Part shown: positions 21,577 to 60,683 of the stretch, piece by piece
Layout: each line of letters opens with the position of its first letter
Numbering within the stretch: position 1 is the stretch's first letter
Source: Panorpa germanica
Taxonomy: Eukaryota; Arthropoda; Insecta; Mecoptera; Panorpidae
NCBI GenBank assembly: GCA_963678705.1
Contig: OY783210.1
Location: 14,261,331 to 14,325,330 of the forward strand
Direction: 5' to 3'
DNA length: 64,000 nucleotides
Notes under the pieces: model-generated
Databases searched by the model: none
The model's input: only the letters and a program-made list of their open reading frames with translations
What the model was told of the DNA's origin: nothing
Program-made: the position numbers and the translations under genes

Positions 21577-21640
<64 letters not shown>

Positions 21641-34167: not shown

Positions 34168-34837
34168 TTTTTTTTTGTCATATTGCACTTTTTAAAAATT
34201 ATGTATTATATTGACATCTAACAACTTTAGTAATTAAAATAATTGATTGCAACTTAAAATTTTTAAGTATTATTTTGTGTCGGAGGTCGGAGAACCCGTT
34301 TTCAAACGTTGCATTCTGGCAGCAATTATATTTTTCATCATGTAAAGAGTCAAATCTGAATTTAAATTTAAATTTTCGGGGTGCAGAGTGTCCCATTGTA
34401 ATCAGTTTTCTTTGTTTATCTTGAAAACTATAATTTCCATAAAAAATTTATATTATGTTTTCTTTTTTTAGATAATAATATAAAGTAAGATCATAGAATC
34501 TTAATATTTTTAAGATTTATTTTTATTTAATAATTTTTTATCGAGGCACCTGTAAAATTTGAACTTAAATCCAAATTTGATCTTTTTAAATGATGTTATA
34601 AAAAAATTGCTGCCTACCCAAAATGCACGGTTGACCTCTTATTAATAACTAATATGATAAATAATATTTAATGTCTTTGTTATGCATACTCTATACATAT
34701 AAAACTAGTCTTTGGTATAGTATAGCTGTAATATGTAATCATAAACTAAAATAGCAAAGAATTGAACAACTTTAAAACAGAAGATTATATTATAGCTGTC
34801 TAAAACATTTTCAACCTTCTTTATTTACTTGATTAAT
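34168..34837. other. RPAP1 3' flank
   Basis: AT-rich sequence containing the RPAP1 3' UTR. No gene recognised; the frame at 34199-34396 has no family feature. Confidence 0.5.
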
Positions 34838-35452
34838 AATGGGCTTGTGTCCTCATTTTTTAGTGGTCGATTTTTCAATTGTTGATTGAAATTGATGTTA
34901 ATAAATGTGTATTGGCGTGTCTATTTAATAAATATCTAAATATTGACAGAGATATAGCAATTAAAAGTTTGAATTGTAGTTTTAGCGCTAGAAATGGTCG
35001 ACCATATTTGTATGACGTGAAATGCATTTTAACGTCAGTTATTTGTTGAGTAGGTCAGTGCTGTGGTAGCTGTGTTTTGTAGCTGTTGGTAGTCAAATAA
35101 TCAAGTCAAATCAAAGAATAATAAGATTTTATTTTATTTAACCCTGCTAAGACAGACATAATATTGGAATTTTATTGTTCCTTGAAATAGCTGTAAATAA
35201 TATTTGATATTTTGTAATATTTGTAAGGTTGGTAACCTTACACAAGGATTGTGATGTCACATGCACTTGGAATGTGTACAACGTTGAATCCCTTTAATAA
35301 GTAAAGAGACAAAATGACTTTTTCAATTGTTAATATCTCCTAACATATAGGGAGTTATTAAAAAATAATTGGACATTTGAGGTTCTAGTAACCCACTTTA
35401 TCAATATATAGTACACTTTTATAGAAATTAAGACATAGGATACAAGCCCACT
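34838..35452 (-). mobile_element. GGGCTTGTGT MITE, copy 3
   Basis: About 615 bp, inverted relative to copies 1 and 2 (the 'cctcattttttagtggtcga' end is at the left). Ends in 'tacaagcccact'. Followed by a 'taaacccaaatgaaat' flank that recurs after copy 4. Confidence 0.9.
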
Positions 35453-35465
35453 TAAACCCAAATGA

Positions 35466-36087
35466 AATGGGCTTGTGTCCTCATTTTTTAGTGGTCGATT
35501 TTTCAATTGTTGATTGAAATTGATGTTAATAAAAGTGTATTGGCGTGTCTATTTTATTAAATATCTAAATATTGACGGAGATATAGCAATTAAAAATTTG
35601 AATTGTAGTTTTAGCGCTAGAAATGGTCACCCATATTTGTATGACATGAAATGCATTTTAACGTCAGTTATTTGTTGAGTAGGTCAGTGTTGTGGTAAAG
35701 TTTTGTAGTTGTTGGTACTCAAACAATCCAGTCAAGTCAAAGAATAATAAGTTTTTACTTTATTTAACCCTGTTAAGGCAGACATAATATTGAAATTTTA
35801 TTGTTCCTTGAAATAGCTGTAAATAATATTTGATATTTTGTAATATTTGTAAGGTTGGTAACCTTACACAAGGATTGTGATGTCACATGCACTTGGAATG
35901 TGTACAACGTTGAATCCCTTTAATAATTAAAGAGACAAAATGACTTTTTTAATTGTTTATATCTCCTAACATATAGGGAGTTATTAAAAAATAATTGGAC
36001 ATTTGAGGATCTAGTAACCCACTTTATCAATATATAGTACACTTCAGTACACTTTTATAGAAATTAAGACATAGGATACAAGCCCAT
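35466..36087 (-). mobile_element. GGGCTTGTGT MITE, copy 4 (tandem with copy 3)
   Basis: Nearly identical to copy 3, same orientation, separated by only 13 bp. The same 'taaacccaaatgaaat' flank follows both copies, so the pair most likely arose by tandem duplication of element plus flank rather than by two insertions. Small indels distinguish them (for example 'gtacacttcagtacactttt' only here). Confidence 0.9.
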
Positions 36088-36299
36088 TTAAACCCAAATG
36101 AAATTATAAAATACAATTTGCTTTTTAATAAATGTCTTTATTATACAAACAATTGTTTAATAATGGTTATCATACCAATTACATGTAGCTAATATAGTTT
36201 TATCAATTAAATTGTAATATAATGGCGGTTGTAATTTTTACGAACTTCTTGAATATAAAAACCGGTAAAACCATATATAGGTTACACAATAAGAAATAT

Positions 36300-37015
36300 T
36301 TATGGATCAAATATGCAGTTGCATTCGTTTACATTACAGGATCCTGAAGTCATGCCAACACTTTTGCAATTTTCATCACATCCCTGATTGTTATTCTTAC
36401 CATTCGCACAGAAGGGACAAACTTTACGCGGAAGTCGGTTTAAAAACTGCTCATTACCTGAAAAGAATTAATATGTTACATGCTAGTAAACCACAAAAAT
36501 ATTTACATTATTATTAATTTAAATGTGTTATAATTTTTAATGTTCTGACTTTAGAAGATTGACTGTATAATATATCAGAAGAAGAAAAGCATGCACTTCT
36601 GCGATTGAGATTGTGTAAGTTATGTGTAATGGAATATTATAGTGCTGTGTCTTTCGGTTCGATCTCCAGAGTTATATTTTACGGGTTTGGTTATTATCAA
36701 GATTACTAAATTGATTATGTACATATATAATCACAAACTTATAAAAACTGGTAATATAGTAGGAGGTACGACTATGCATCGCAAATAGGCAGACGTTAAA
36801 GAAAATAAATTAAAAAAGATATGAAAACTGTAATGAGTATCTATATAATAAATAAATATAAAGATGAATGTATATTTACCTTGACTCAATAAAATGTCTT
36901 CAAATTTGTCTACAAATTTCGATTCAACTGGTATAGCAGACACTTGAAAGTAGCAAATACAAATTAAGGAGAAAAGAAGAAAACAAAACAAATTATTTTT
37001 CAAACCCATTTTCAC
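36300..37015 (-). pseudogene. Cysteine-rich secreted peptide gene, frameshifted member
   Basis: Leftmost member of the peptide array. Exon 1 (37015-36880) encodes a good signal peptide (core GLKNNLFCFLLFSLICIC) and an acidic propeptide, ending at a phase-1 donor like its relatives. Exon 2 (acceptor before 36458) encodes the family's seven-cysteine pattern, CPFC...CDENC...C...CNC, and a stop at 36302-36300. Between the acceptor and the CPFC motif, a run of four T on the coding strand (36422-36419) puts the two halves in different frames; the spliced frame would stop soon after. Either the gene is dead or the homopolymer has one base too many in this assembly. A TATATAAA lies at 37096-37103. 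Confidence 0.6.
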
Positions 37016-39565: not shown

Positions 39566-40151
39566 TTATACTGCACCAGGTTCTGAGTTAAAGCACATAC
39601 ATTTTGCTCCAACACATTCTCCCATCATATATTTAAGTTCCCTGCACCTGTTATTGCAATCAGCGGGTCCATTAGGTCCACCATTTGGGCCGCAGTAGGG
39701 ACAAGCATACCGCTTCTCTCTTAACAACGAACCTGGAAGAATAATTTTTATAATAATAGTATATTATAATTCAGTTGTCATTTGATATTTCAAATTATAT
39801 TAACAATACTATAAACAGGGTTGCCAGATGAAAATGAACTGTACTGTCAATAAATGTTAGAAGAAGTATTATGCTACACGTAAAAATTGATACAAAATAC
39901 ACATTAAGAAAAAGAAGAAGAACAGCTAAACTTAAATATATCAACGGCAAAATATAAAAACATTACAAATTCTTTGAGCAAGCAAATGAATATTATGTCA
40001 ATGATTTTTCTTAGAAGTGATTTATGTTTCTAATGTAATGTTATGTACCTTGTTCATTTTCTAATTTTAGTTCTTCGTGGCTCCGTGCAGTAGTTTGGTG
40101 CAGAACTGCACACAAAACGACAAGTACAAAGGCAAGTGTAAAATATTTCAT
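39566..40151 (-). CDS. Secreted seven-cysteine peptide (CPYC family), intact
   Basis: Two exons: 40151-40049 and 39732-39566, phase-1 intron, 89 aa. Exon 1 is a signal peptide (MKYFTLAFVLVVLCAVLHQ, cleavage likely near TTA-RS) plus an acidic propeptide (SHEELKLENEQ). Exon 2 starts GSLLREKR, a dibasic processing site, then a roughly 46-residue mature domain with CPYC, CNNRC, GEC and KCMC. The CxxxC...C...CxC spacing recalls cysteine-stabilised alpha-beta (defensin-like) folds, but there are seven cysteines, so one is unpaired or makes a dimer. Function unknown: antimicrobial, venom or signalling peptide are all possible. TATATAAA lies about 50 bp upstream of the start. Confidence 0.85.
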
Positions 40152-42161: not shown

Positions 42162-42355
42162 TCAAGATTGGATAACGTTTTCTTGAATATGAGGATCTCT
42201 GTTGAAGCACCGACATTGTTCATTAATGCATTCTCCCAGCATAAAATTTCTCTTAATGCACTCTTCATTACACTTTGCAGCCCCACCAAGCCCGTAGCCA
42301 GCTTCACAGTAAGGGCAGATCTTCCTCTTCTCCCTTACAAGAGAACCCTCTGATT
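42162..42355 (-). CDS. Seven-cysteine tail exon of the chimeric gene
   Basis: Terminal exon: phase-1 acceptor, SEGSLVREKR processing-like site, then CPYC, CNEEC, GEC and QCRC, and a 13-residue tail after the last Cys ending before TGA. Almost identical to the exon of the gene at 57577-57764 (Leu for Val and few other changes), so it is under constraint or recently duplicated. Confidence 0.85.
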
Positions 42356-45300
42356 CTAAACACATAATAAAGGTTATTTTATGACTCTAATATATCAATG
42401 ATATTATATAATTATGTTTTTAGGTTATAATTTAAATACGTACTACTGATTTGAACATATATAGTGTACTCTGATGAATATCCATTTTTTTCAAATATAC
42501 AGTCATATGCACCGGTATCCTCTATTGTTAAATCTCTTAAAAAGAATCCGTACCTATTGTCATATGGTTTCGTTTCGTTACCTGTAAGCTTAGAATATAA
42601 TTGACATTATGATTCAGATTGGTGTGCTTCAGGTTCGATTGTCGGATCATATTTTCTGTGTGTACAACTGTCAGGCTGTTACACCATCAAAATCACACTC
42701 AACACTTTGCATTGGAAATATTTCTAATTCAAATAAATCAAAGCGATAGTGTGCCGATAAAAATGTCAGATGGTAACATAACGTTTTCAAAAGTTAGGTT
42801 ATGTTATTTACTGAAATTTAACATAATTTTGTTGCATTGATATTATAAAAATTTTGTCAAATATGTCAAAGTCGAGTTTTTCAAAAGTCAAAGGTCATAA
42901 AATAGCTGCCTTTTGTAGACATCTTGTTTTCTATGCTCTAAATAAGTATTAGTAAAATTGTAGAGTATAAAATAATGTATTTTATGATATTATATTTTCA
43001 AAATGGCAGACACCACGATCTTATAAATGCAATATCTATAGAACCACTTAACACATTTTAATTATTTTTACGGTATACGAAAGCTAATTAAATTACGCAA
43101 AATTTATAAAGAATAACATTTTTTAAAAAAATTGATACTTTATGAGTTATTTTAAACTTACTTCGACTCCATTTTTAACCAAAGTGACTCTAACGGTTGG
43201 AGAAGTTGGTCTACATGGTATTACAAAGTCATCCTCTGTCGTTGCAGAACCAACTGACAATGACATTGCTTCATCATTTGAAACCATTAATTTATCACCT
43301 GTAAATATATCACCTTCCTATTATCACCATTGTAAATGTAAATGTTTGATTTGAAACTGTATCTGTCACGTACCATCAACGTATATATAAACAGCAGTCG
43401 CGTGCCCCTCAGCTGTCAAATACTCTAAAGTGTTATTCTCGGTAACACTGTCTGCATATTTGCATACATAGAAACCAACGTCAAGGAACTGGAGGTCTGG
43501 CACTTGTAAATTTGTGACATGTGGATAATCAGCCTCATTCTCAAATTCGTAACTGACATCAAACGAATCCGTCGTTCGCTGATAAGAAACAATAATATAC
43601 AATTAATTCAACATAACCTGAAAATGTTTCTGACACAAATCAAATGAAGAAATATTCTCACAACTGAGTTACTAGGTAGTTCCCATTTTAAACGTTTCTT
43701 TCCAATGCATTTTATCGATAAGTTATTTCCAGCTGTTATTATTTGCTCTCGATGATCCGGCTCTAGCAAAGGCGCTTCATCTCTACTACCTTCGGTATCT
43801 GGAAAAAAATATCCATTTTCGATATTTTATGTAAAAAATGAACATAATGATTCTAAACACATAATAAAGGTTATTTTATGACTCTAATATATCAATGATA
43901 TTATATAATTATGTTTTTAGGTTATAATTTAAATACGTACTACTGATTTGAACATATTGTTGTAAGTACGCATATGTCGCACTTACCTTTTATTTTTAAT
44001 GATATTAAATGTTAATTATGTAATAGAATTATATTATGTAAACAGTTTTTGTATTAGTATTAAGATTGTAAAGAATAATTATTTAAGTTTAGCGCTTATA
44101 AATATTGTCTCTGGTTTGTGGAGATTAATATTGATTTAATGCTGGTAATTCAGTATTGGCGTTCTGTGATGTGAAATAAATTATTATATATTAAATTGCA
44201 CAAGACGCTAAAAGCCAGTCTTCTCCTGAGTCTCAAAGCAAGCATTACTATTCGCAACTTCGTACGTATTGAATAGTGAGCACATTTCAACTATTAATTA
44301 AATTATAACACTATAGAATTACATTTTGTTTTATATCTGTCATCTTCGTTAATCTAATAAAATACTATTGTAATTAAGTAAGCAGATATAATATTACAAC
44401 GAATAAATGATATATTTTAATAAAAGTGTTTGTATTAATAGTAATAAAAAGATACTAATTGTTCAACCGTCGCATGTCGCAACGAGGTTACTTTAGACCG
44501 CTCAAGTATTCTCTAATTGCAACAATACACCGTCTGAACAAGAATCCTTATTAATCATCTTAAGAAAGATATTCGATTACTACTGTAATTGGTGTTGGAA
44601 GTCGTCAACTGAAGAATCTACTACCAGAAGCTAGCATCCCTGCAGAATGTACTAGTAAGCTGAGTAATCTCCTCCAGAACGACAATACGACACTATTTTA
44701 CAACATTGGTGTCAGGTGGGGTCTCGAAGAGATATTCCTACACATAAATATCCAAGAGGTACGCCCAAAATTTTTTTCTATATATTCTACACCTGGATGC
44801 AGATCAATTATTCTGGATACCACTACGTCGATCGATTATTTCCAAGATTGCCGAAGAGTACGAGATAGAACGTCAATTCATCTGTATTTCACATAATTTT
44901 TCTACAAGTCCGGTGGATGTAAAACAACAGCCCGCTGAACCAAAAAAAAAAGAAATCTTTTGCCCCCAGCGAATGGATGGATGCTTCTAGAACAAATGGA
45001 ATAATCTAAACTGATGTTAATCGTTTCCAGAACCCTGCACACAGCTGTACATAGATCAAAATCGAAAGTTTTTTTTGTTAAGTATAATAAGACAGTATCT
45101 TTTTATCTTGTATACAATTATTATCATAAATTGATAATTGTATTTTTTTCTATTAGTAGCATCCTTGTAGTTCATTGAAGCTATTATTTTTTTAGTATTA
45201 TATTCAATACTTTTGAATATTTGCTATAACCTATCTATTAGTAGCATCCTTGTAATTCATTGAAGCTATTATTTTTTTAGTATTATATTCAATACTTTTG

Positions 45301-48300
45301 AATATTTGCTATAACCTATCTATTAGTAGCATCCTTGTAATTCATTGAAGCTATTATTTTTTAGTATTATATTCAATACTTTTGAATATTTGTTATAAAA
45401 TAACAATTTTGTAGCATCATTGTTCAATATTTTTAGTATTATATCCAATACTTTTGAATATCTACTATAATATTTCCTATAATTGTTTCTACAATTATAT
45501 TAATTCATGTTTAATATTTTTAGAACATCTTTATGAACGAGAAAGAATTTTGAAAAGGAGAAGTAAAGACCTGAAGCAGTTAGATAGCAGTCTGTTCAAT
45601 CAGAGAGACTACCTTCCTGTTACAACTGCGGTGTCTGAGCCCCATCGGAAATTTCCAGTGAGTTACTGTTTTCGCTAACAATTTTTCCTTGTCAGAATCC
45701 TATTTTTCGGAGAGTCGTTTATTGGTACAAAATAATCTTTAGTCTGTATATTATATATAACTTTAATTAAGTACTATGGCACCGAACGTTCATTCACTCA
45801 CACTAGTTGAGAATACAATCAATCTAATTAATGAGTTTTCAAAAAATCTAGAAGTCCAATCAACATCCTTAACAATAGTTGAATTAAAAATCAAAAACTT
45901 AGACAAAGCTTGGGTTAAATATAGTAGTATCGTAGAAGCATTGCTTCCAACTCTAAAAAATGAAGAAGCTTCGGCTATCGTTAGTAAGTCTATGGAAGTT
46001 GAAAGTATTTATGACGACACTCTTATTTACTTGTTGAATTATAAGCAAACATTTGAGAATGATACACATATTGTAGACGACTCAAAAAGTATAGATTCAA
46101 TAAAAAATCTGAACTTAAGTCCAATGCAACTAACCGTTTTTGATGGAGAATATATTAATTGGCAAAGTTTTATGGAATTATTTACAAATTTAATTCGTAA
46201 TAATAGTAAACTATCAAGCATTGAAAAAATGCATTATTTAAAGTTAAATTTGTCAGGAGAACCACTCAAACTCATAAAGAATTATCCTTTAACAAATGAT
46301 AATTACGAAATTGTTTGGAACATCCTTTGTAAACGTTATGATAACAAGGTAGCACTTATTGAAACCTGTTTAAACAATTTAATAAACTACAATGTTATAC
46401 GTTTAGAGTCCGAAATCAATATCAAAAAACTACTAGATGAAATTAATGAATCGATTAGAGCATTAACCGAATTGGGGATATATTCTAATCATTCAGATTT
46501 TATGTTAATACATATTTTAAAGACCAAATTAGATTTTAATTCGTCAAAGGAATGGGAAAACAGAAATAATTCTGAATTACCAACCTTAAATGAATTTACA
46601 GAGTTTCTGGAGAGACGGTGGCGCAATCTAGAAAGAAGAAGGCATATTAAAGTCAAAACATATCCAAGCGTTCCTAATTCTAATAGTAAACCAGTTTCAA
46701 GCAAGCAAATTCCTAATAAGGTCGAAACAAAAACTAAAAATTTGTTCTGTAACCATTGTAAGAAAAGTGGTCATACAGAAAAGTATTGTTTTATTAAGAA
46801 GGAAAATCTAGATACGGGTAACCCTATTGCTCAAGTTAATACTTGTAGGGAGGCCACAATTTTATCAGAACCTTCTACTTGTTGTGAAAGATCGAAACAT
46901 CTTATATCTGATGGTTCTCAAGTATCTTTTACTAACAAGACACAACACAATTCAAATAATGAATTATGTTTTTTTTATGATTTTGATGAGATCAATACGG
47001 GTAATTTACAAAATAATAATGATATTCTAAGTTTTGACAGTAAAAATAAAAATGTTAAGGCTAAGCAAACAGTTGACACTATCCAATTCAAGATGGTCGC
47101 AGCCAAAGCTAAAACCGTATCATTTTTATTAGATACTGGTTCTCAAATCTCCTTGATTAAACAAAATATTTTAAATAACAATGTCAGAATTAATAATAAA
47201 TCTAAAATTCTATTGAAGGGTATTTCTGAAGGCACGCCTTATACCTTAGGTTCACTGAAAACTTCTATAATTTTAGATAGTAATAAGTCGAAACAAACTT
47301 TACAGGTTGTGTCAGAAAATTTCCCCATTAAACACGATGGAATTATAGGGTTAGATATTTTACGGAAACTAAATGCAGTAATTAATCTAAAAATGAACAG
47401 AGTACAATTCTCAGAATGTGGCAAAGTAATTGAGCTCCCACTTATAAATATAAACAATATCGTTTTACCAGCACGTACGAGGAAAATAATTCCTATGTCA
47501 GGTTCTACAGTAGGAGTTTGTGTAGCCAGGGAATTGTTACCTGAAGTTTTTTTAGCTAATGCATTAATCAAGCCCGTCAAAAATATTTTCTATATTTCAA
47601 TAATAAATTCTTCAATAAAAAATATAATACTTAGTAATTTCAAACCGAATATCATACCGATAGATCAATTTAGTATTTACCATTTTTCAAAATCAAGTCC
47701 TAACAACCGTAAGGAACTTTTATTAAACAATTTAAATCTTTCACATGTCAATTCAGAATTAGTAACAGAATTAATAGAAATCTGTGACAGCTTTAATGAC
47801 ATATTTTTTTTACCGGGAGACAAGTTATCTTGTACGAGCGCATTAAGTCATAAGATAAAGATTAATTCTTCTAAACCCGTTAACGTTAAACCGTATCGAT
47901 TGCCCCATGCGCAAAAAGAGATTGTGGAAAAGCATATTCAGGAACTGTTGGTCAACAACATAATTGAAGAAAGCGACTCACCCTATAACGCACCTTTATT
48001 AGTAGTACCAAAAAAACCAGATGCGTTAGGTAATAAACAATTCCGCGTAGTAGTCGATTTCCGTAAACTTAACGAGCAGACAACAAGTGACGCCTATCCT
48101 TTGCCTCTTATACATGATATACTGGACCAACTTAGTGGTGCAAAATTTTTCTCTACCCTTGACTTAGCAAGCGGTTTTCACCAGGTCCCTATGCTTCCCG
48201 AAGATAAAGAGAAAACAGCATTTAGTGCGAACTTTAAACACTATCAATTTGTAAGAATGCCATTCGGACTTAAAGGAGCCCCCCCCATGTTTCAGAGACT

Positions 48301-51300
48301 TATGTCTCACGTTCTCACAGGTTTGCAAGGAATAGATTGCTTAATCTATCTGGACGATGTAGTCATTTTTGGAAAAAACATTTCTGAGCACAACCAAAGA
48401 TTAAAAAACGTTTTTTCTAAATTACGGGAACATAATTTGAAGCTCCAACCATCCAAATGTAACTTTCTACATAAAGATTTGATTTATTTAGGTCACGTTA
48501 TTAATGAAACAGGTATTCTACCAGATCCTTCTAAAGTAGAAGCAATAAAGAATTTCCCCATTCCAAACAGTCCTAAACAAATTAAAACATTTTTGGGTAT
48601 GTCTGGTTATTATCGCCGACATATACCGCATTACGCAGAGATAGCCAAACCACTATATAATGCAGCAAACAGTAATGTTAAAGTATTAGAATGGTCAGAC
48701 CAATGCGACGAATCATTTAAAACTTTAAAAAATAAATTAACCATATCACCTGTTTTGCAATACCCGGACTTTAGTAAAAATTTCGTTGTAACCACGGATG
48801 CAAGTAAATATGCTATAGGTGCAGTCCTTTCACAAGGTACTATTAAGGAAAGCCACCCAATAGCATATGCTTCAAGAACTCTAAATAAGGCACAACAAAA
48901 TTACACAACTACTGAACGTGAGTTATTAGCAGTAGTATGGGCTGTGGCTCATTTTAGACCCTATCTCTATGGAAAGTTTTTTAGTATCGTAACAGACCAT
49001 CAAGCCTTGACTTGGTTAATGAGTATTAAGGACCCGAGTTCTAGACTTATGCGTTGGCGGATAAAACTAGAGGAATATAATTACGAAGTAATATATAGAC
49101 CAGGTAGTTCGATTCCACACGTAGATGCCCTAAGTCGCGTATACTCACTTCAGGTTGAAACAATGGATGTCACATACGAAAATTATTTAGAAATAATTAA
49201 AAATAAAATTATCATAAACAATAAAGTAATTGAACATGATAAAAGTTTATATGACGCACCGACGTCATTTTCATTAGTAGATTTTGTATCAAAAGATTTT
49301 AAAAATTCAATTGGAAATTCTCCTGAATTAATCAATAAATTTAGTAGTATCAATGCATTTCTAATACAAGAAAAAGAAGTATCAGAAATTGCATATGTTG
49401 AAATTGATACTAGATTTATTATCTGTTTAATAATTAAGGAATTTCATTTTAATCTACCAAATTATAAAGAAATATTTTTGGCATTAGTGAATCTGAAAAA
49501 CTTTTGTACTTTACACAAAATTACTAACATAGCTATGAACAGGTTCGAGTCTGAACTAAGTAAATTAGATTTTGCCCAGTTACGAACTATGATCAGACAT
49601 ATCTTTGATAAAACAAATATAATAGTACACATTTATAATGACAATATACTTAAAATTAGTGACCCTGAGTTAATAAACAATGTAATTTCGGAATTTCATG
49701 TTAATCCCACAGCAGGCCACTTAGGAGTTTCTAAAACAATTAAACGATTAAAATCACACTTTAAATTTCCAAGTATGATTAGAAAAGTTAAAAATTTTAT
49801 TAGACAATGTGTATCATGTCAAAAGAATAAAGTGTGCAAATTAAATAAATGCCCATTAACAATTACATCGACTTCGAAACATAGTTTCGAAAGGTTGGCT
49901 TTGGACATAGTATATCTTCCCAAGAAAGACGACAACGACAAATACAAATACTTACTAACAATACAGGATGACCTTACTAAATTTACGGAAGCTATTCCTA
50001 TTATAAACCAGGAGGCAAATACTGTCGCGAAAGCATTAGTAACTAACGTTATTTGTAGGTACGGAGTTCCTAATATGATCTTAACAGACCAAGGAACAAA
50101 TTTCATGTCAAAAATTTTTAAAGATATATGCAAATTGTTAAAAATTAAACAATTAAAAACAACAGCATTTAGACCAGCAACCAACGGTGCCTTAGAAAGA
50201 GTTCATAGAACCCTTGCCGAGTATCTAAGGAATTTTTGTAAAAAGCAGGATGATTGGATAAATTGGATTCCCTATGCAATGTTCGTGTATAACACAACTC
50301 CGCATACAGCGACCGGTTTTACTCCTTTCGAACTAATTTATGGACATAAGGCAAATCTGCCTTCAATTTTTTATAAAGAACCAATTGAGGTAAATACTTA
50401 TAATAATTTTATAGTAGAACTCAAACACAGGTTACAAGTAGCGAGGGAACTTGCTATAAATAACTTGGTTAAAAGCAAAGAAAAAACAAAATTATATTTT
50501 GATAAAAGGGTCAATTCTCTTTTCACACCTGAAGTAAACGAACTAGTTTTATTAAGAAATGAACAGTTACCAACTAAAGGACAGTCAAAAAAACTTTTAC
50601 CCTTATACGTAGGACCGTATAAAGTTACTAAAATTATATCCCCTGTTAATACAGAAATACTAATTGGTAAAAAAACATACGGTAGTTCATAATAATAGGT
50701 TGAAGAGATTTTGTACCAATGAATAAAAACTTGACGAATGAAATGGATTTTGTCAGGGATGATTGTTTTGTGGAGCAGTGTTAACTCTATACGATGGGAT
50801 CAGAATCGTTGTCGACACTTTGCTTCTCTTTTTGTTTTTTTCTAGAATTGTAACTCGTATATTTTGTTTTTATACGTGTCCCTTTTTTTTTGAAAGGGGG
50901 TGTTGTGATATGTACGACATCTCCCCTATCACAATTTTTCCTTTTTCTTTTCCTTAGAGCAGAAACGCATATGTTTTGTTTTATATGCGTTCCTTTTCTT
51001 TGGTTGAGGAGTGTTGTAAGTACGCATATGTCGCACTTACCTTTTATTTTTAATGATATTAAATGTTAATTATGTAATAGAATTATATTATGTAAACAGT
51101 TTTTGTATTAGTATTAAGATTGTAAAGAATAATTATTTAAGTTTAGCGCTTATAAATATTGTCTCTGGTTTGTGGAGATTAATATTGATTTAATGCTGGT
51201 AATTCAGTATTGGCGTTCTGTGATGTGAAATAAATTATTATATATTAAATTGCACAAGACGCTAAAAGCCAGTCTTCTCCTGAGTCTCAAAGCAAGCATT

Positions 51301-54300
51301 ACTATTCGCAACTTCGTACGTATTGAATAGTGAGCACATTTCAACTATTAATTAAATTATAACACTATAGAATTACATTTTGTTTTATATCTGTCATCTT
51401 CGTTAATCTAATAAAATACTATTGTAATTAAGTAAGCAGATATAATATTACAACGAATAAATGATATATTTTAATAAAAGTGTTTGTATTAATAGTAATA
51501 AAAAGATACTAATTGTTCAACCGTCGCATGTCGCAACGAGGTTACTTTAGACCGCTCAAGTATTCTCTAATTGCAACAATACACCGTCTGAACAAGAATC
51601 CTTATTAATCATCTTAAGAAAGATATTCGATTACTACTGTAATTGGTGTTGGAAGTCGTCAACTGAAGAATCTACTACCAGAAGCTAGCATCCCTGCAGA
51701 ATGTACTAGTAAGCTGAGTAATCTCCTCCAGAACGACAATACGACACTATTTTACAACAATATATAGTGTACTCTGATGAATATCCATTTTTTTTCAAAT
51801 ATACAGTCATATGCACCGGTATCCTCTATTGTTAAATCTCTTAAAAAGAATCCGTACCTATTGTCATATGGTTTCGTTTCGTTACCTGTAAGCTTAGAAT
51901 ATAATTGACATTATGATTCAGATTGGTGTGCTTCAGGTTCGATTGTCGGATCATATTTTCTGTGTGTACAACTGTCAGGCTGTTACACCATCAAAATCAC
52001 ACTCAACACTTTCCATTGGAAATATTTCTAATTCAAATAAATCAAAGCGATAGTGTGCCGATAAAAATGTCAGATGGTAACATAACGTTTTCAAAAGTTA
52101 GGTTATGTTATTTACTGAAGTTTAACATAATTTTGTTGCATTGATATTATAAAAATTTTGTCAAATATGTCAAAGTCGAGTTTTTCAAAAGTCAAAGGTC
52201 ATAAAATAGCTGCCTTTTGTAGACATCTTGTTTTCTATGCTCTAAATAAGTATTAGTAAAATTGTAGAGTATAAAATAATGTATTTTATGATATTATATT
52301 TTCAAAATGGCAGACACCACGATCTTATAAATGCAATATCTATAGAACCACTTAACACATTTTAATTATTTTTACGGTATACGAAAGCTAATTAAATTAC
52401 GCAAAATTTATAAAGAATAACATTTTTTTTAAAAATTGATACTTTATGAGTTATTTTAAACTTACTTCGACTCCATTTTTAACCAAAGTGACTCTAACGG
52501 TTGGAGAAGTTGGTCTACATGGTATTACAAAGTCATCCTCTGTCGTTGCAGAACCAACTGACAATGACATTGCTTCATCATTTGAAACCATTAATTTATC
52601 ACCTGTAAATATATCACCTTCCTATTATCACCATTGTAAATGTAAATGTTTGATTTGAAACTGTATCTGTCACGTACCATCAACGTATATATAAACAGCA
52701 GTCGCGTGCCCCTCAGCTGTCAAATACTCTAAAGTGTTATTCTCGGTAACACTGTCTGCATATTTGCATACATAGAAACCAACGTCAAGGAACTGAAGGT
52801 CTGGCACTTGTAAATTTGTGGCATGTGGATAATCAGCCTCATTCTCAAATTCGTAACTGACATCAAACGAATCCGCCGTTCGCTGATAAGAAACAATAAT
52901 ATACAATTAATTCAACATAACCTGAAAATGACACAAATCAAATGAAGAAATATTCTCACAACTGAGTTACTAGGTAGTTCCCATTTTAAACGTTTCTTTC
53001 CAATGCATTTTATCGATAAGTTATTTCCAGCTGTTATTATTTGCTCTCGATGATCCGGCTCTAGCAAAGGCGCTTCATCTCTGCTACCTTCGGTATCTGG
53101 AAAAAAATATCCATTTTCGATATTTTCATGTTTCTGTTTGTATTAGTATTATATACCTTTAAAGAATTTTGTGAAATGTTTAATTGATAACTTGTTTTGG
53201 TGTTACTTTTGGGTCCGGTTGCTGTACTCATAGTTATAACAAAAGTTGGTTAGTTTTTGCTTGGCTTTGGTTTGGTTTGATAAATCTGCGGCTAGAACCG
53301 ACTCGTGTGTTCCTTGCATGTGTTGTGTCACAATACATACATACCACGTATCGATACGACAGTACGCCAAATCAAACTTGTGTACTATAGGGTGTATTGG
53401 AGTCATAATTTAAAATTAGAGCAAACTTTTACTTTAATTTTTATCGATACACCACTGTTATGAAAGAGACTATTGCATTCCATTCCAGACTGTGACGGCT
53501 GATTGCATTTACAAGGTTCGGATAGGTTTAGCTTGCAGTGTGCGACAGGCCTTATTCTATACCAGAACGATTTTCTTCTTAATATTAACAGTAGTTCCAG
53601 AAATAAATAAAATCTAACCCTGAACAAATATATATATAATGGGATTGTGTCTTATGTCTTAATTTCTATTAAAGTGTACTATATATTGATAAAGTGGGTT
53701 ACTAGAACCTCAAATATTCAATCATTTTTTAATAACTCCTTATATGCTAAGAGATATTAACAATTAAAAAAGTCATTTTGTCTCTTTAATTATTAAAGGG
53801 ATTCAACGTTGTACACATTCCAAGTGCATGTGACATCACATATGTCATCACTATATGTATTTATATATCAAATATTATTTACAGCTATTTCGTGGAACAA
53901 TAAAATTTCAATATTATGTCTGCCTTAACAGGGTTAAATAAAATAAAAACTTATTATTCTTTGACTTGATTATTTCGACTACCAACAGCTACAAAACATT
54001 ACCACAGCACTGACCTACTCAACAAATAACTGACGGTAAAATGCATTTCACGTCATACAAATATATCCGACCATTTCTAGCGCTAAAACTACAATTCAAA
54101 TTTTTAATTGCTATATCTCCGTCAACATTTAGATATTTAATAAAATAGATACACATTTATTAACATCAATTCCAATCAACAATTGAAAAATCGACCACTA
54201 AATGAGGACACAAGCCCATTGTTATATTTAACACCACCTATTAATTTTATTAGGGTTCGCATTACTTATTAAAAACTTATTAATCAATTTATTACTTTTT

Positions 54301-55837
54301 CTCGCTTACATTTTTATCTAGAGTGGCATTTATTTATGGCATTGCCATCACAACTATATTGACAGTTGATAAGTCAATAGTGCGGCACGGTTATGGTCCT
54401 GAGCGGTCCAGATTAACAAAGTTCTATTATATTAATAATAAATTCTATAGTAAAACACATGTATTACAGATGATCTATTTATATTTTATCTGTACATGCC
54501 TTGTCATCTTTTGCTTAACTCACATAGATCTATTGATGCAGCCTGTTTTGTCCTTGACATAGAATTATGAATGATGTCACTACCAATCGCAGAGTACATT
54601 CATTAACATAAAACAATATAACGTCTTATTTTCCTTATAAGAGTAGTTTCCTTATAATCTTGTACTGGGTGTAAATCATAAAATGAATTGAAACAGCGGT
54701 CCATTTAAAGTGGAAGTAATGCTATAAGGCATCGGTGTAATGTAATAAAATTTTGTACAGTTATGAAGCATATCAGTAACTAATTACCACGAAAATTTGA
54801 CATTGATTGACCGTTTAGAACTCGAGATAATGATGCTTAAATGAAACCAATATTAGTGGCAGCACTAGTTGATACTATGTACTCTACCACTCGCTACGAG
54901 GCCAATATTTAACTTTTATTTAAATAACGGTTAAAGTTAATTCTTTTTGAAATAGTATAAGTTACTACGCAATTTGGTTTAGTAACGTTGAATGGTTCTG
55001 AGAGACGCTTATATAATAACTAAAGCGTGGTCTCACCACGCTAAATGTCAAATCTAAGTCAATTGTAGTTAACCACTCCCGCCCCCTTGATCTCTACAAC
55101 AGTTAAAACCAGACGCCTCTTAATTAATCTGAGTGCTTCATTACAAATAAAAATAATTGGTCTCTTGTGATTTGAACAAGGCTTAATTAAATTATACTCC
55201 ATTTTAGTTTTATCAAAACGCATTTAACTAACGAGAAATATTATATTTGATTCAAACAAAAATGAGAACGTATAAACCTAGGTTTATAATAAACCTCAGT
55301 TAACTTATAGCGTAGCGATGGCATTTGATATAAATACAAATGATTCAAGAACTCGTAAAGTATATTATACCATGTTTAAAATATCAAAATATAATAATAT
55401 AAGAATATAAACATATAAGAATAGATTCAAACACCTGGGACATTATAATATATGATACTATAAACAGGGTTGCCAGATGAAAATGAACTGTACTGTCAAT
55501 AAATGTTAGAAGAAGTATTATGCTACACGTAAAAATTGATACAAAATACACATTAAGAAAAAGAAGAAGAACAGCTAAACTTAAATATATCAACGGCAAA
55601 ATATAAAAACATTACAAATTCTTTTCATTCATTTTGTTCAAACAAGATAACATTTTGAGCAAGCGAATGAATACTGATTCGGTCCATGATTTTTCTTAGA
55701 AGTGATTTATGTTTGTTAATGTAATGTTACATACCTTGTTCATTTTCTAATTTTAATTCTTCGTGGCTCCGTGCAGTAGTTTGGTGCAGAACTGCCCACA
55801 AAACGATAAGTACAAAGGCAAGTGTAAAATATTTCAT
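42162..55837 (-). CDS. Predicted chimeric secreted protein: signal + VEGFR-like Ig D1-D2 (x2) + seven-cysteine tail
   Basis: The array is head-to-tail, so the signal exon at 55837-55735 (phase-1 donor) pairs with the cysteine-rich exon at 42355-42162 (phase-1 acceptor). Between them lie eight Ig exons, entering and leaving in phase 1: cassette B 53096-52960, 52882-52678, 52602-52466, 51892-51764 plus 43957-43941; cassette A 43798-43662, 43578-43374, 43298-43162, 42588-42444. Without the retrotransposon the length would be 514 aa. D1 has C-x-G-x4-L-K-W and DVGFYVC. D2 has 'DDFVIPCRPTSPTVRVTL' and 'YDNRYGFFL' then EDTGAYDC, the hallmark of VEGFR domain 2. No membrane segment or kinase is present. 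I infer a secreted binding protein, perhaps a VEGF/PVF decoy. In this haplotype the fourth Ig exon of cassette B is split by an LTR element, so the full frame is broken. Splicing is predicted, not shown. Confidence 0.6.
42444..43798 (-). CDS. Ig cassette A (D1-D2, VEGFR/PVR-like), intact
   Basis: Four exons: 43798-43662, 43578-43374 (D1) and 43298-43162, 42588-42444 (D2), symmetrical phase 1-0-1-0-1. The D2 acceptor that keeps frame is 'attctaag' before 42588; the nearer 'cttacag' would shift frame to a stop. The last donor can be at 42443 or three bases earlier, both phase 1. Within D1 the Cys pair is IKC and YVC; within D2 IPC and YDC. All canonical Ig residues are present. The block from 42356 to about 43850 is one duplication unit; the unit restarts at 43850 with 'gattctaaacacataataaa'. 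Confidence 0.8.
43850..43957 (-). repeat. Left piece of Ig cassette B unit, cut off by the LTR element
   Basis: Repeats 42353-42460 ('gattctaaacacataataaa' to 'tactgatttgaacatat'). Contains the 3' part of the fourth Ig exon of cassette B (43957-43941) and its phase-1 donor, then is interrupted at 43957/43958 by the 5' LTR. Confidence 0.9.
43954..43957. other. Target site duplication ATAT (left)
   Basis: ATAT occurs at 43954-43957 and again at 51760-51763. Cassette A preserves the empty site, 'gaacatatatagtg', in which ATAT is present once. Confidence 0.9.
43958..44705 (+). repeat. 5' LTR
   Basis: Begins TGTTGTAAGTACGCATATG and ends ACTATTTTACAACA; TG...CA termini. Same length as the 3' LTR. 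Confidence 0.95.
44707..44728 (+). promoter_or_regulatory. Primer-binding site, probably tRNA-Leu
   Basis: One base after the LTR, TGGTGTCAGGTGGGGTCTCG(AA) is the complement of a tRNA 3' end: TGACACCA acceptor, T-arm stem and a TTCGA T-loop. The TGACACCA end fits tRNA-Leu best; isoacceptor not determined. Confidence 0.65.
45151..45472 (+). repeat. 85-bp tandem repeats in the retrotransposon leader
   Basis: Units start at 45151, 45236 and 45321 ('tattagtagcatccttgta'), almost identical, with a degenerate fourth unit to about 45472. They lie between the primer-binding site and the gag start. Confidence 0.9.
45776..50692 (+). CDS. Gag-pol polyprotein of the LTR retrotransposon
   Basis: 1,638 aa in a single frame. 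Gag part (about residues 110-300) resembles DUF1759, usually seen in BEL/Pao elements ('LTVFDGEYINWQSFMELFT', 'LKLNLSGEPL'). A zinc knuckle CNHCKKSGHTEKYC is near 324, and an aspartic protease FLLDTGSQISL near 450. Reverse transcriptase has the gypsy-type YLDDVVIFG near 858, RNase H has TDASKYAIGAVLSQ near 1007. Integrase has an HHCC zinc-binding segment at about 1307-1347, Asp residues near 1376 and 1436, Glu near 1474, and a C-terminal GPY-like motif. Gag and pol in one frame need no frameshift. The element appears intact enough to be active. Mixed gag/pol affinity is noted as a finding. Confidence 0.93.
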   Translation: MAPNVHSLTLVENTINLINEFSKNLEVQSTSLTIVELKIKNLDKAWVKYSSIVEALLPTLKNEEASAIVSKSMEVESIYDDTLIYLLNYKQTFENDTHIVDDSKSIDSIKNLNLSPMQLTVFDGEYINWQSFMELFTNLIRNNSKLSSIEKMHYLKLNLSGEPLKLIKNYPLTNDNYEIVWNILCKRYDNKVALIETCLNNLINYNVIRLESEINIKKLLDEINESIRALTELGIYSNHSDFMLIHILKTKLDFNSSKEWENRNNSELPTLNEFTEFLERRWRNLERRRHIKVKTYPSVPNSNSKPVSSKQIPNKVETKTKNLFCNHCKKSGHTEKYCFIKKENLDTGNPIAQVNTCREATILSEPSTCCERSKHLISDGSQVSFTNKTQHNSNNELCFFYDFDEINTGNLQNNNDILSFDSKNKNVKAKQTVDTIQFKMVAAKAKTVSFLLDTGSQISLIKQNILNNNVRINNKSKILLKGISEGTPYTLGSLKTSIILDSNKSKQTLQVVSENFPIKHDGIIGLDILRKLNAVINLKMNRVQFSECGKVIELPLININNIVLPARTRKIIPMSGSTVGVCVARELLPEVFLANALIKPVKNIFYISIINSSIKNIILSNFKPNIIPIDQFSIYHFSKSSPNNRKELLLNNLNLSHVNSELVTELIEICDSFNDIFFLPGDKLSCTSALSHKIKINSSKPVNVKPYRLPHAQKEIVEKHIQELLVNNIIEESDSPYNAPLLVVPKKPDALGNKQFRVVVDFRKLNEQTTSDAYPLPLIHDILDQLSGAKFFSTLDLASGFHQVPMLPEDKEKTAFSANFKHYQFVRMPFGLKGAPPMFQRLMSHVLTGLQGIDCLIYLDDVVIFGKNISEHNQRLKNVFSKLREHNLKLQPSKCNFLHKDLIYLGHVINETGILPDPSKVEAIKNFPIPNSPKQIKTFLGMSGYYRRHIPHYAEIAKPLYNAANSNVKVLEWSDQCDESFKTLKNKLTISPVLQYPDFSKNFVVTTDASKYAIGAVLSQGTIKESHPIAYASRTLNKAQQNYTTTERELLAVVWAVAHFRPYLYGKFFSIVTDHQALTWLMSIKDPSSRLMRWRIKLEEYNYEVIYRPGSSIPHVDALSRVYSLQVETMDVTYENYLEIIKNKIIINNKVIEHDKSLYDAPTSFSLVDFVSKDFKNSIGNSPELINKFSSINAFLIQEKEVSEIAYVEIDTRFIICLIIKEFHFNLPNYKEIFLALVNLKNFCTLHKITNIAMNRFESELSKLDFAQLRTMIRHIFDKTNIIVHIYNDNILKISDPELINNVISEFHVNPTAGHLGVSKTIKRLKSHFKFPSMIRKVKNFIRQCVSCQKNKVCKLNKCPLTITSTSKHSFERLALDIVYLPKKDDNDKYKYLLTIQDDLTKFTEAIPIINQEANTVAKALVTNVICRYGVPNMILTDQGTNFMSKIFKDICKLLKIKQLKTTAFRPATNGALERVHRTLAEYLRNFCKKQDDWINWIPYAMFVYNTTPHTATGFTPFELIYGHKANLPSIFYKEPIEVNTYNNFIVELKHRLQVARELAINNLVKSKEKTKLYFDKRVNSLFTPEVNELVLLRNEQLPTKGQSKKLLPLYVGPYKVTKIISPVNTEILIGKKTYGSS
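50693..51011 (+). other. 3' internal region with candidate polypurine tracts
   Basis: Two purine tracts precede TGTTGT: 'gaaaggggg' at about 50893-50901 followed by TGTTGTGATATGTACGAC, and 'ggttgaggag' just before the 3' LTR at 51012. The second is the working one by position. Confidence 0.6.
51012..51759 (+). repeat. 3' LTR
   Basis: Same 748-bp sequence as 43958-44705, ending CAACA, followed by the ATAT target duplication. Confidence 0.95.
51764..53096 (-). pseudogene. Ig cassette B (D1-D2), fourth exon disrupted by the LTR element
   Basis: Near-identical copy of cassette A: exons 53096-52960, 52882-52678, 52602-52466 and the 5' part of the fourth at 51892-51764, with matching splice sites. 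Substitutions such as Val to Ala in 'ADYPHATNLQ' and Thr to Ala in RTADS distinguish it. The first three exons are open. The fourth is cut after the EYTIY codons; its last 17 bases lie 7.8 kb away at 43957-43941. Read-through would enter LTR sequence. Confidence 0.8.
53638..54220 (+). mobile_element. GGGCTTGTGT MITE, copy 5
   Basis: About 583 bp, AATGGGATTGTGTC to GGACACAAGCCCATT, same orientation as copies 1 and 2, with a few internal deletions. Lies in the first intron of the chimeric Ig gene. Confidence 0.88.
54221..55451. other. Intron sequence of the chimeric gene, no exon recognised
   Basis: AT-rich DNA between the MITE and the duplicated signal-exon block. I looked for another Ig or cysteine-rich exon on the minus strand and found none. 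Confidence 0.5.
55735..55837 (-). CDS. Signal-peptide exon of the chimeric Ig gene
   Basis: MKYFTLAFVLIVLWAVLHQ then an acidic propeptide ending ENEQ, phase-1 donor GTATGT at 55734. Nearly identical to the first exons at 40151 and 60683. No cysteine-rich exon follows before the Ig exons, so the next acceptor in phase is 53096. Confidence 0.75.
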
Positions 55838-57576: not shown

Positions 57577-58337
57577 TCAAGATTGGATAACGTTTTCTTG
57601 AATATGAGGATCTCTGTTGAAGCACCGACATTGTTCATTAATGCATTCTCCCAGCATAAAGTTTCTCTTAATGCACTCTTCATTACACTTTGCAGCCCCA
57701 CCAACCCCGTAGCCTGCTTCACAGTAAGGGCAGATCTTCCTCTTCTCCCTTACAAGAGAACCCTCTGGAAAACAAAATGATATTTTATGTAAAAAATGAA
57801 CATAATGATTCTAAACACATAATAAAGGTTATTTTATGACTCTAATCTCGTTAAACAACTCATTAAAAGTCAGTGGAAGAAAACTTAAAATGTAGATACG
57901 TTATTCATCTAACTAATTCATCTAACAGCTTTAGATTTTGATTCGCGTTTATAGTTACTTACATAAAACGATTTAAACATAAAAAACATGGTTTTTTTGA
58001 TAATATTTAACCTGCTGTATAGTATCGCCATCTATATTTCGCGAGAAAAAATGGCCAAGTATCGTTTCACCTTAATTTTAAAACATACTATTATACAAAT
58101 GTTTTTTAGTAAACTGGATAAATATTTTTGCTAAAACATAAGATATAGAACAATTCAATTTTAAAGTTTCAGTACTGTCTTTTAAAATGAATGTATTAGC
58201 TACGTAAATGTTACATTAAAAAGTAAATATATCTAACCTTGATCACCTTCATTCAATTCATCGATAGATCTTGATGTTGTTTGGTGCAATACAGCGCAGA
58301 AAACTACCAGTACGAATACTAATGTATAGGACTTCAT
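57577..58337 (-). CDS. Secreted seven-cysteine peptide (CPYC family), intact
   Basis: Two exons: 58337-58238 and 57764-57577, phase-1 intron, 95 aa. Signal peptide MKSYTLVFVLVVFCAVLHQ, propeptide with IDELNEGDQ, exon 2 with EGSLVREKR then CPYC, CNEEC, GEC, QCRC and a 13-residue extension after the last Cys. The tail exon is almost the same as the chimeric gene's. Its intron begins, next to exon 2, with 57780-57845, which matches the boundary between the two Ig cassettes at 43826-43885 but contains no Ig exon. That suggests a lost cassette or the ancestral intron. A right inverted-repeat arm (57861-58075) fills most of the remaining intron. Confidence 0.85.
57861..58075 (-). repeat. Inverted repeat, right arm
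   Basis: Reverse complement of 56708-56920, with minor changes ('ctgctgtatagtatcgccatc' here). Lies inside the intron of the peptide gene at 57577-58337. Confidence 0.88.
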
Positions 58338-59027: not shown

Positions 59028-60683
59028 TTATACTGCATCAGGTTCTGAGTTAAAACACTGACATTTGATTCCTACGCATTCCCCCATCATATGACCAGTA
59101 CTTCTGCACCAGTTATTGCATCTTGCGGGTCCAGTAGGTCCTCCAACAGAACTGCAGAAGGGACAATTATACCGCACCTCCCGCCTCTCTCTTAACAAAG
59201 AACCTGAAAGAATAATTTTATCTTAATAACATTTCTTTCAAATGTATATTACAATTCAGTTGAACTTCCATTTGATATATCAAATTATTTACAATTTTAT
59301 AGATAGGGTTGCCAGATGTAGAGTGAAAAATTTACTGCGTTTTTTATTTCATATATTCAAATTAAATGGAAACAAATAAAACAAACTTTACCAACGAAGG
59401 GGAAAATGCCAGTAAATCGTAACACTGTTGAAAACACATTTTAAGAAAAGGAAGAACAGCTAAACTCAAATAAATATTGAAAGAAAAATTATGTCAATGA
59501 TTTTTCTTAGAAGTGATTTATGTTTCTAATGTAATGTTACGGGCTACACTTTTAAAAAGAATAATGGAGAAGAGGCGCAGATAAGGGAGGTGGCAAAGAA
59601 GGCAGAGCAAGCAACGCGACGGGTATGGAGACTAGGGGAAAAGGTATTTGGGGGGGACATACAAAAGATAATATGGATATTTGATAGACTGATAGCCAGT
59701 ATGATGTTGTATGGAGCAGAGGTTTGGGGGTGGAAGGAACAAGAAAAGTTGGAAAGAATACAGGTGAGATATATGAAATGGGTACTAGGGCTGGACAGGT
59801 GCACGCCAGGATACATGGTGATGGAGGAGCTAAAAAGGGATAAGATACGAATTAAAACAGGGGAAAGAGCAGTAAAATACGAGGAGAAATTGAACAGAGC
59901 GGAAAGCAAAATTTTAAGGAAAATAAGAGAGGATAACATAAAGAATGGGGGGGGACGAGGTCCAAAAAATAGAAAGGAGTACTTTGAAAGGAATGGAATG
60001 GCGATCGAGGAGGCAGAGAGGAGAAGAGAAGGTGGCGCAAGTGTGGAAGAGGAGCTAAGGAGAAGGGATAAGGAGACACAACAGCAGGAGAGAATGGGAA
60101 AAATAGAAAAAAGTAACTACAATAAAAGATATAAGAGGTTATGGGAAAATAATGTACCTCAGTACCTTATAGAAAAAGACATAAAACACATAAGAAGAAC
60201 AGCATGGTTTAGATTGGGAAATGAGGAAAAAGGAAACAGATACTGGGAAAAGAGTGAGGAAAGAAAGTGTAGAGTGTGCGGAGCGGAGGACGAAACACTG
60301 GAGCACATTAAGTTTGAGTGTAAGGAAAAAGTAGCGAGCGAAAGGAATATTGGCCAGCTATTAAAGGGAGGCAGTGAAGGAAAGAGGTGGATGGCGGAAA
60401 TAGTAAGAAGGAAAGAAAAAACAGGAGAATAAATAAGCTGGTGGAGAATAATGTAAATTTAATTGTAATTTGAATGTATTTTGAAATGTATTAAGAATGT
60501 AGATTGTAAAGCCGAAAGGCGAACAATAAACAATAAAAAAGAAAATAAAAAAATAAAAAAAAAAATGTAATGTTACATACCTTGTTCATTTTCTAATTTT
60601 AATTCTTCGTGGCTCCGTGCAGTAGTTTGGTGCAGAACTGCACACAAAACGATAAGTACAAAGGCAAGTGTAAAATATTTCAT
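59028..60683 (-). CDS. Secreted seven-cysteine peptide (CPFC variant), intact
   Basis: Two exons: 60683-60581 and 59203-59028, phase-1 intron, 92 aa. Signal and propeptide almost identical to those at 40151 and 55837. Exon 2 has a longer basic stretch (GSLLRERREVRY), then CPFC, CNNWC, GEC, KCQC and the SEPDAV ending, so it pairs with the gene at 39566-40151 as a subfamily distinct from the QENVIQS-tailed pair. A non-LTR retrotransposon fragment sits in the intron and leaves both exons open. TATATAAA at 60731-60738. Confidence 0.85.
59541..60563 (+). mobile_element. 5'-truncated non-LTR retrotransposon in the peptide gene's intron
   Basis: Flanked by a 13-bp direct repeat AATGTAATGTTAC (59528-59540, 60564-60576), with an A-rich tail before the right copy. 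It keeps only the region downstream of reverse transcriptase. The body is purine-rich, GC-richer than its surroundings. It lies antisense to the host gene. Confidence 0.88.
59590..60432 (+). CDS. C-terminal part of non-LTR ORF2 protein
   Basis: 280-codon open frame with 'DRLIASMMLYGAEVWGWKE', 'LERIQVRYMKWVLGLDRCTP' and a C-terminal CRVCGAEDETLEHIKFEC zinc-finger-like motif, all typical of the thumb-to-C-terminus region of insect ORF2 proteins. The reverse transcriptase core (FADD) is missing, so this is not a gene but a truncated copy. The frame is open with no stops, so the insertion is young. Confidence 0.85.
   Translation: MAKKAEQATRRVWRLGEKVFGGDIQKIIWIFDRLIASMMLYGAEVWGWKEQEKLERIQVRYMKWVLGLDRCTPGYMVMEELKRDKIRIKTGERAVKYEEKLNRAESKILRKIREDNIKNGGGRGPKNRKEYFERNGMAIEEAERRREGGASVEEELRRRDKETQQQERMGKIEKSNYNKRYKRLWENNVPQYLIEKDIKHIRRTAWFRLGNEEKGNRYWEKSEERKCRVCGAEDETLEHIKFECKEKVASERNIGQLLKGGSEGKRWMAEIVRRKEKTGE

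Follow-up and report, generated by a model that had tools for sequence, protein, structure and literature searches.

The window analysed here, i.e., a stretch of 64,000 nucleotides (64 kb) of Panorpa germanica DNA (contig OY783210.1, positions 14,261,331 to 14,325,330), has the composition of insect nuclear DNA (29% guanine plus cytosine) and carries, on the minus strand of its right half, an array of five small secreted-peptide genes, here called A to E. As an earlier note on this DNA had stated for the sister genes, A, B, D and E are plain two-exon genes, in each of which an open signal exon and an open exon for a seven-cysteine (seven-Cys) peptide are joined by one phase-1 intron. In gene C, the subject of this analysis, an immunoglobulin (Ig) cassette of four exons stands twice between the signal exon (55837-55735) and the Cys exon; it is laid out as two Ig domains (D1 and D2) that stem from the receptor gene Pvr. 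Its features are as follows (window coordinates; LTR, long terminal repeat; ORF, open reading frame; MITE, miniature inverted-repeat transposable element).

55735..55837, minus strand: exon 1, signal peptide and propeptide start; phase-1 donor gtatgt; type-1 signal common to genes A and D
55388..55441, minus strand: 5′ junction, 54 bases of unexplained origin between the gene-D-like intron (ends 55442) and the Pvr-derived DNA (starts 55387)
53097..55387, minus strand: captured DNA upstream of the Pvr D1 exon; blocks collinear with C4:23307896-23311450, with unaligned stretches between them; MITE-like repeat at ~53638-54224
52960..53096, minus strand: copy 1 Ig exon 1 (D1, first half)
52678..52882, minus strand: copy 1 Ig exon 2 (D1, second half)
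52466..52602, minus strand: copy 1 Ig exon 3 (D2, first half)
51760..51892, minus strand: copy 1 Ig exon 4 (D2, second half), broken; one extra A at ~51795, then the LTR retrotransposon; donor beyond the insert
43958..51759, plus strand: LTR retrotransposon of Ty3 type interrupting copy 1 exon 4; LTRs at 43958-44705 and 51012-51759; ORF 45776-50692
43833..43957, minus strand: rest of copy 1 exon 4, next intron and copy 1/copy 2 junction, where a gene-B-type intron end joins Pvr sequence at AAAATATC
43662..43798, minus strand: copy 2 Ig exon 1 (D1, first half), intact
43374..43578, minus strand: copy 2 Ig exon 2 (D1, second half), intact
43162..43298, minus strand: copy 2 Ig exon 3 (D2, first half), intact; in-frame, 6 nt longer than the Pvr exon
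42444..42588, minus strand: copy 2 Ig exon 4 (D2, second half), intact
42162..42355 (or from 42349), minus strand: last exon, seven-Cys CS-alpha-beta-like peptide; derived acceptor
42324..42335, minus strand: REKR codons, a furin-type site motif between the Ig part and the mature Cys peptide, where cleavage would be expected

The exon borders named in the earlier note (signal exon at 55837, Cys exon at 42355, and those of the Ig exons) are present on the minus strand. Phases along the cassette run 1-0-1-0-1, so that each D1 and each D2 is a phase-1/1 module, in keeping with the phase-1 entry and exit that had been described. The eight Ig exons had also been taken to be open, which holds for seven of them; the exception is exon 4 of copy 1 (from 51892), in which a one-base frameshift (an extra A in an A run, at ~51795) leads into a stop codon just inside an LTR retrotransposon, both lesions having previously been missed. 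This retrotransposon (43958-51759) is 7.8 kb long, with identical 748-bp LTRs, an ATAT target duplication and, on the plus strand, a Ty3-type ORF of 1638 amino acids that contains a DUF1759 domain in its first part; it is apparently young. With an A run of 7-8 at the site, the frameshift could be an assembly error, which the retrotransposon is not. Since both lie in copy 1 exon 4, an intact tandem cannot be read from this haplotype. The two copies are 98.8% identical, with 4 substitutions over 611 aligned exon positions, 4 more in introns and three small indels (one of which is the extra A); eight further differences sit at the 5′ edge, beyond the shared unit.

Copy 2 is open through the signal exon, D1-D2 and the Cys exon (306 residues, with three N-glycosylation sequons), and gene C retains a TATA-type box and an AATAAA/ATTAAA match. 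Its Cys exon can be entered at TTTAG/AATCAG (42355) or at ATCAG/AGGG (42349), both in frame. The acceptor used by the Cys exon of gene B is missing from gene C because of a ~40 nt deletion (relative to gene B), and the present acceptor is derived.

The receptor parent and the origin of gene C

The D1-D2 unit aligned colinearly with D1-D2 of VEGFR1 (5t89, E 3.1e-15; residues 14-198 of 208) and with PDGFRA (8.8e-14), which bears out the VEGFR-type identity proposed earlier for these exons. Two VEGFR-specific Pfam models matched D1-D2 below their cut-offs (E 6.7e-6 and 1.6e-5), and the general 'ig' model matched above its cut-off. A parent gene, for which a search had been suggested, was found in the insect's own genome (a 464-Mb assembly of 249 contigs). 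Specifically, when the 10 best candidates for D1-D2 were scored, 13 matches at E <= 10 emerged: eight in the two copies of gene C, four at C4:23311451-23312804, i.e., on another contig (C4), and one, at chance level, on contig C15 (E 4.5).

Downstream of the four matching exons, the C4 locus contains further Ig exons and then split tyrosine-kinase exons. Pfam analysis of eight downstream ORFs yielded Ig for three, kinase over the cut-off for two and kinase below it for one, and nothing for the remaining two, which include the D3 exon. Between the Ig and kinase parts, a hydrophobic segment was recognised by visual inspection alone. When one kinase exon was used as the query, the kinases of CSF1R, PDGFRA, KIT and VEGFR made up most of the top matches (best 60 of 898), the single best one being an EGFR construct. 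Judging by its exons, the C4 gene is the insect's own Pvr-type receptor kinase and the parent of the Ig exons of gene C.

Parent and copy 2 have the same AG and GT at all four exons, no stop codon, and lengths of 206 and 208 residues, respectively. Moreover, the captured piece matches C4:23307896-23312858 in collinear blocks with the introns included, and was therefore copied as genomic DNA and not as a retrocopy. The parent span on C4 is ~5 kb today; ~1.1 kb of it, bearing a hAT-like ORF (by eye), is absent from the captured piece and probably entered the C4 parent after capture. Gene C consists of D1-D2 units followed by the Cys exon, without D3-D7, transmembrane segment or kinase, and hence is no receptor. 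Bit scores against VEGFR1 (58.0 for the parent, 59.8 for the chimera) do not tell which branch has changed. A search of viral contigs with D1-D2 found no relative, by which a virus-borne origin of the Ig cassette is mildly disfavoured. Protein-database searches with the chimera and with gene D found nothing, a result of little weight since the collection is suspected to be poor in insect proteins.

The 5′ end of gene C (56045-55442) is 90% identical to that of gene D and its 3′ end (42383-41807) 93% identical to that of gene B, and the spacer between B and C is homologous to the spacer between C and D. At the 5′ border, gene-D homology extends to 55442 and Pvr homology begins at 55387, while at the 3′ border Pvr homology extends to 42392 and exact gene-B sequence begins at 42391. 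Gene C is thus a young chimeric gene with three parents, i.e., a gene-D-like 5′ end, a gene-B-like 3′ end and a piece of Pvr, and we hold this parentage and anatomy with high confidence.

The first step would have been an unequal crossover in which the intron of B recombined with that of D, giving rise to a new gene in the middle whose signal exon is of D type and whose Cys exon is of B type. One genomic Pvr piece (D1, D2 and their introns) is enclosed by the gene-D-like promoter and signal exon and the gene-B-like Cys exon, where it would splice in frame because its entry and exit are both phase 1. Next, the Ig unit underwent a tandem duplication at AAAATATC, a short sequence shared by the region that precedes D1 and the B-type intron at its end. 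This tandem duplication is earlier than both the loss of the acceptor and the entry of the retrotransposon: beside copy 2, ~40 nt with the Cys acceptor were lost and the acceptor was replaced, and the retrotransposon entered copy 1 and broke its last exon.

Non-coding divergence amounts to 5.8% for the gene ends (47/815) and likewise to 5.8% for the captured non-coding DNA versus its parent (96/1658), which agrees with one event. The middle of the B-C/C-D spacer, however, is 25.8% diverged (225/872) versus 4-7% for the gene ends, a contrast that a single, simple date of duplication would explain only if gene conversion had occurred. Possible alternatives to one event are that the ends underwent gene conversion, or that the array was older and took up the fragment at a later time; a single clean duplication is only favoured.

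The peptide array around gene C

The sister genes of gene C occupy the following positions (sig, signal exon; cys, Cys exon).

59028..60683, minus strand: sister gene A; sig 60683-60581, cys 59203-59028; intron with a fragment of a transposon; RERR
57577..58337, minus strand: sister gene B; sig 58337-58238, cys 57764-57577; 3′ end of gene C shares the type of its intron end and 3′ part
39566..40151, minus strand: sister gene D; sig 40151-40049, cys 39732-39566; 5′ part of the same type as the 5′ end of gene C
36300..37009, minus strand: sister gene E, more distant; sig 37009-36880, cys 36457-36300; RLPR

Cys spacing in the seven-Cys peptides is 2-11-3-9-4-1, from which gene E deviates (2-9-3-9-4-1). 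A basic motif stands just before the first Cys in all five genes (REKR in B, C and D, RERR in A, and a minimal RLPR in E). An AlphaFold model of the Cys exon of gene C, built from five aligned paralogues, showed a helix (21-33) and two strands (38-42 and 45-49) at a mean predicted local distance difference test score of 67.6. With this model, Foldseek gave short scorpion peptides and insect defensins as its best matches, from E 0.08 upward and none at <=0.001. Among Pfam families, Defensin (E 0.0011) and Toxin_2 (E 0.0031) gave matches that fall short of the cut-off. On the modelled fold, i.e., a CS-alpha-beta framework (CxxxC...CxC) with a helix and two strands, the seven-Cys peptides are classed as defensin-like and not as proven defensins. 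Three further distant relatives of the seven-Cys exon lie far from the window on the same contig (C7: 1352738, 1372764 and 369440), two of them with a stop inside the matched span.

Some other elements were encountered in the window. The intron of gene A holds a fragment of non-LTR type (~59545-60560; Pfam zf-RVT, E 0.0071, below cut-off). A MITE-like repeat of ~600 bp, with copies 82-94% identical (15976-16605, 22899-23521, 34834-35450, 35466-36104 and 53638-54224), is common around the array and around the Pvr gene on C4. Two adjacent long ORFs on the minus strand (6618-9035 and 11766-13580) start alike (CxxC-type) and are perhaps a tandem duplication; judged by eye, ORF 6618-9035 ends in what resembles the beginning of a metallo-beta-lactamase of SNM1A/DCLRE1A type, to which Pfam Lactamase_B gave no better than E 0.12. 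Finally, a perfect palindrome of 62 bases occupies 21578-21639.

Predicted product and competing accounts

The readable product of gene C would be a secreted precursor in which one D1-D2 unit takes the position of the short propeptide, between the signal and REKR, and the seven-Cys peptide comes last. Since REKR is found in gene C as in sister genes, the Ig part occupies the propeptide position and is probably cut off from the Cys peptide: a furin-type protease would free the latter at REKR and leave Pvr D1-D2 as a separate soluble fragment. This fragment would circulate as a soluble binder that does not signal and that rivals Pvr for the Pvf ligands of the insect itself, and it would be produced at the same sites as the peptides. 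Five stretches over the Pfam cut-off for the PDGF domain in the insect's own genome point to the presence of ligand genes.

A soluble Pvf-binding fragment is accordingly no more than our best mechanistic guess, made by analogy with better-known receptors. In the excerpted text of PMC12086256, VEGFR1 binds VEGF mainly through an interface formed by D2 together with D3, and its soluble forms still bind this ligand but do not signal. Comparable excerpts on arthropods state that shrimp Pvf1 directly binds the ectodomain of Pvr4 (PMC13252836), and that dominant-negative Pvr in Drosophila larval haemocytes lowers haemocyte size and number (PMC2688285). The earlier note had envisaged a soluble tandem D1-D2 trap with a defensin-like tail, possibly acting on the PVF signalling of another insect. 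What stands of this is one complete D1-D2 unit (copy 2) that is open into the Cys exon; the tandem fails with copy 1, the tail is probably separated at REKR, and action on another insect finds no support, the source of the Ig exons being the insect's own Pvr. Coleoptericin-like genes of the insect's own genome count in the same direction: seven matches exceeded the cut-off (four of them with a stop within the span read through), a family that, taken alone, would suggest a beetle. The moricin and chorion families, in contrast, had no match in this genome, but none in any control genome either.

Taken as a whole, a three-parent chimera encoding a putative soluble Pvf competitor is the best explanation, and one we lean towards slightly. 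That the protein has a selected decoy-like role is doubtful. A more specific idea is that of an exon-shuffled, fast-evolving host Pvf trap in the propeptide of an inducible defensin-like gene, in which each peptide release would give a matching dose of soluble receptor fragment damping Pvf signalling to blood cells; this is speculative and quite improbable, and would, if true, couple antimicrobial output to haemocyte control in one transcript.

Besides the diverged spacer, several observations weigh against the best explanation. Over 205 codons, Pvr and copy 2 differ by 24 replacement and 5 silent changes, in addition to a 2-residue insertion in gene C, and the ratio of replacement to silent rates (dN/dS) between parent and copy 2 is 1.33 (dN 0.0515, dS 0.0387; bootstrap 0.49-7.3). 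Replacement divergence is not lower than the divergence of the captured non-coding DNA (Fisher p 0.57), with no constraint visible, and equal constraint at 0.3 on both branches is rejected (p 0.0006). Moreover, copy 1 is broken, the Cys acceptor is a makeshift, and a signal-to-Cys splice that skips all Ig exons is likewise in frame. Pvr homology also stops close to where the D3 exon begins; gene C lacks D3, which in VEGFR belongs to the ligand interface, and Pvf binding is likely to be weak for that reason.

To a young rearrangement without selected function, i.e., a receptor fragment that drifts and decays in a fast-duplicating peptide array, we give an even chance. Such a fragment would be expected to show what is seen in the replacement rate (like the non-coding rate, at a dN/dS of about 1.3), in the frameshift and retrotransposon of copy 1 and in the lost Cys acceptor. 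Nevertheless, copy 2 has its four frames and eight splice dinucleotides intact while its three introns show 4 indels versus the parent, its sole exon indel is an in-frame one of 6 nt, and the promoter box and poly(A)-type signal have been retained. Simulated neutral drift keeps four open exons and their splice sites in 7.2% of runs at the gene-end rate (from which the deep spacer was left out) or in 11.8% at the captured-DNA rate (from which 54765-54734, the repeat at 54224-54025, 53631-53580 and 53185-53097 were left out), too commonly for drift to be excluded. The open frame of copy 2 is mildly surprising under drift, and the evidence of selection is weak, in that these tests do not separate a fast-evolving functional protein from a young neutral one. 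A claim of positive selection was rejected for the 24 replacements among 29 coding differences (p 0.38 under full neutrality; p 0.045-0.17 for a drifting chimera and a parent under constraint at 0.1-0.5).

Alternatively, gene C might yield the seven-Cys peptide only, the Ig exons being skipped as intron ballast with phase 1 at both borders. The in-frame join of signal and Cys exons would permit this, and the Cys exon differs from that of gene B at 3 of 187 positions, versus 26 of 353 in the 3′ flank (14 of the 26 in one poorly aligned stretch). However, the Ig exons have consensus splice sites and would normally be included, and the derived Cys acceptor looks weak (by eye), so that we consider this account unlikely.

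An intact D1-D2-D1-D2 trap with a defensin-like tail is refuted for this haplotype by the lesions in copy 1 exon 4 and by REKR before the Cys peptide; the copies are highly identical, and the identical LTRs mean that an insertion-free allele may still exist, but such a product is barely credible. An assembly artefact, in which a haplotype of the Ig unit that has the retrotransposon and one that lacks it were joined in a single contig, would explain two highly identical copies with an insert in one only, but is very improbable too, as the copy 1/copy 2 border is a new junction (a gene-B-type intron end fused at AAAATATC to Pvr DNA) and no allelic flank, and no further copy appeared among the 10 best candidates scored in the own-genome search.

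Comparison with known systems

With its Pvr parent on C4, a receptor of the insect and crustacean type, gene C shares the D1-D2 exons, their splice sites and the domain family, but it has a different promoter, signal exon and 3′ end and is devoid of the further Ig domains (D3-D7), the transmembrane segment and the kinase. Its Cys peptide shares the core C-x3-C-x7-G-x-C-x4-C-x-C with the consensus of the lepidopteran X-tox proteins, as given in an excerpt of PMC2728511; in contrast to that consensus, it has seven Cys and not six, one motif per gene and not a tandem rosary, and Pfam matches below cut-off.

Chimeric genes that arise by tandem duplication are already known in insects (PMC5460883; see also PMC4503668). 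In Drosophila yakuba, where tandem duplication and exon shuffling have made chimeric genes, tandem duplication gives rise to new gene structures (PMC5460883, in excerpt), as in gene C, in which, however, a third, unlinked receptor fragment lies at the join. Gene C is a freshly made chimera, all parents of which can be named (two neighbouring peptide genes and an unlinked Pvr) and the later steps of which can partly be ordered, and it provides a worked case of receptor-fragment capture in an insect. In literature searched by title and abstract start, no case of a soluble, decoy, truncated or duplicated insect Pvr was found, which is no proof of absence, and none of the matches listed described a Pvr fragment inside a defensin-like precursor.

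The dominant-negative Pvr of Drosophila, as presented in the part of PMC2688285 cited above, is a laboratory transgene. Like soluble VEGFR1 (sVEGFR1/sFlt-1), the predicted product of gene C would be secreted, ligand-binding and devoid of a kinase. Whereas sVEGFR1, as excerpted from PMC12086256, comes from alternative splicing of the receptor gene itself, gene C is a separate chimeric locus on another contig and has D1-D2 only. If its protein is made and binds Pvf, gene C would give soluble VEGFR1 a natural equivalent in an insect, one that originated as a gene in its own right.

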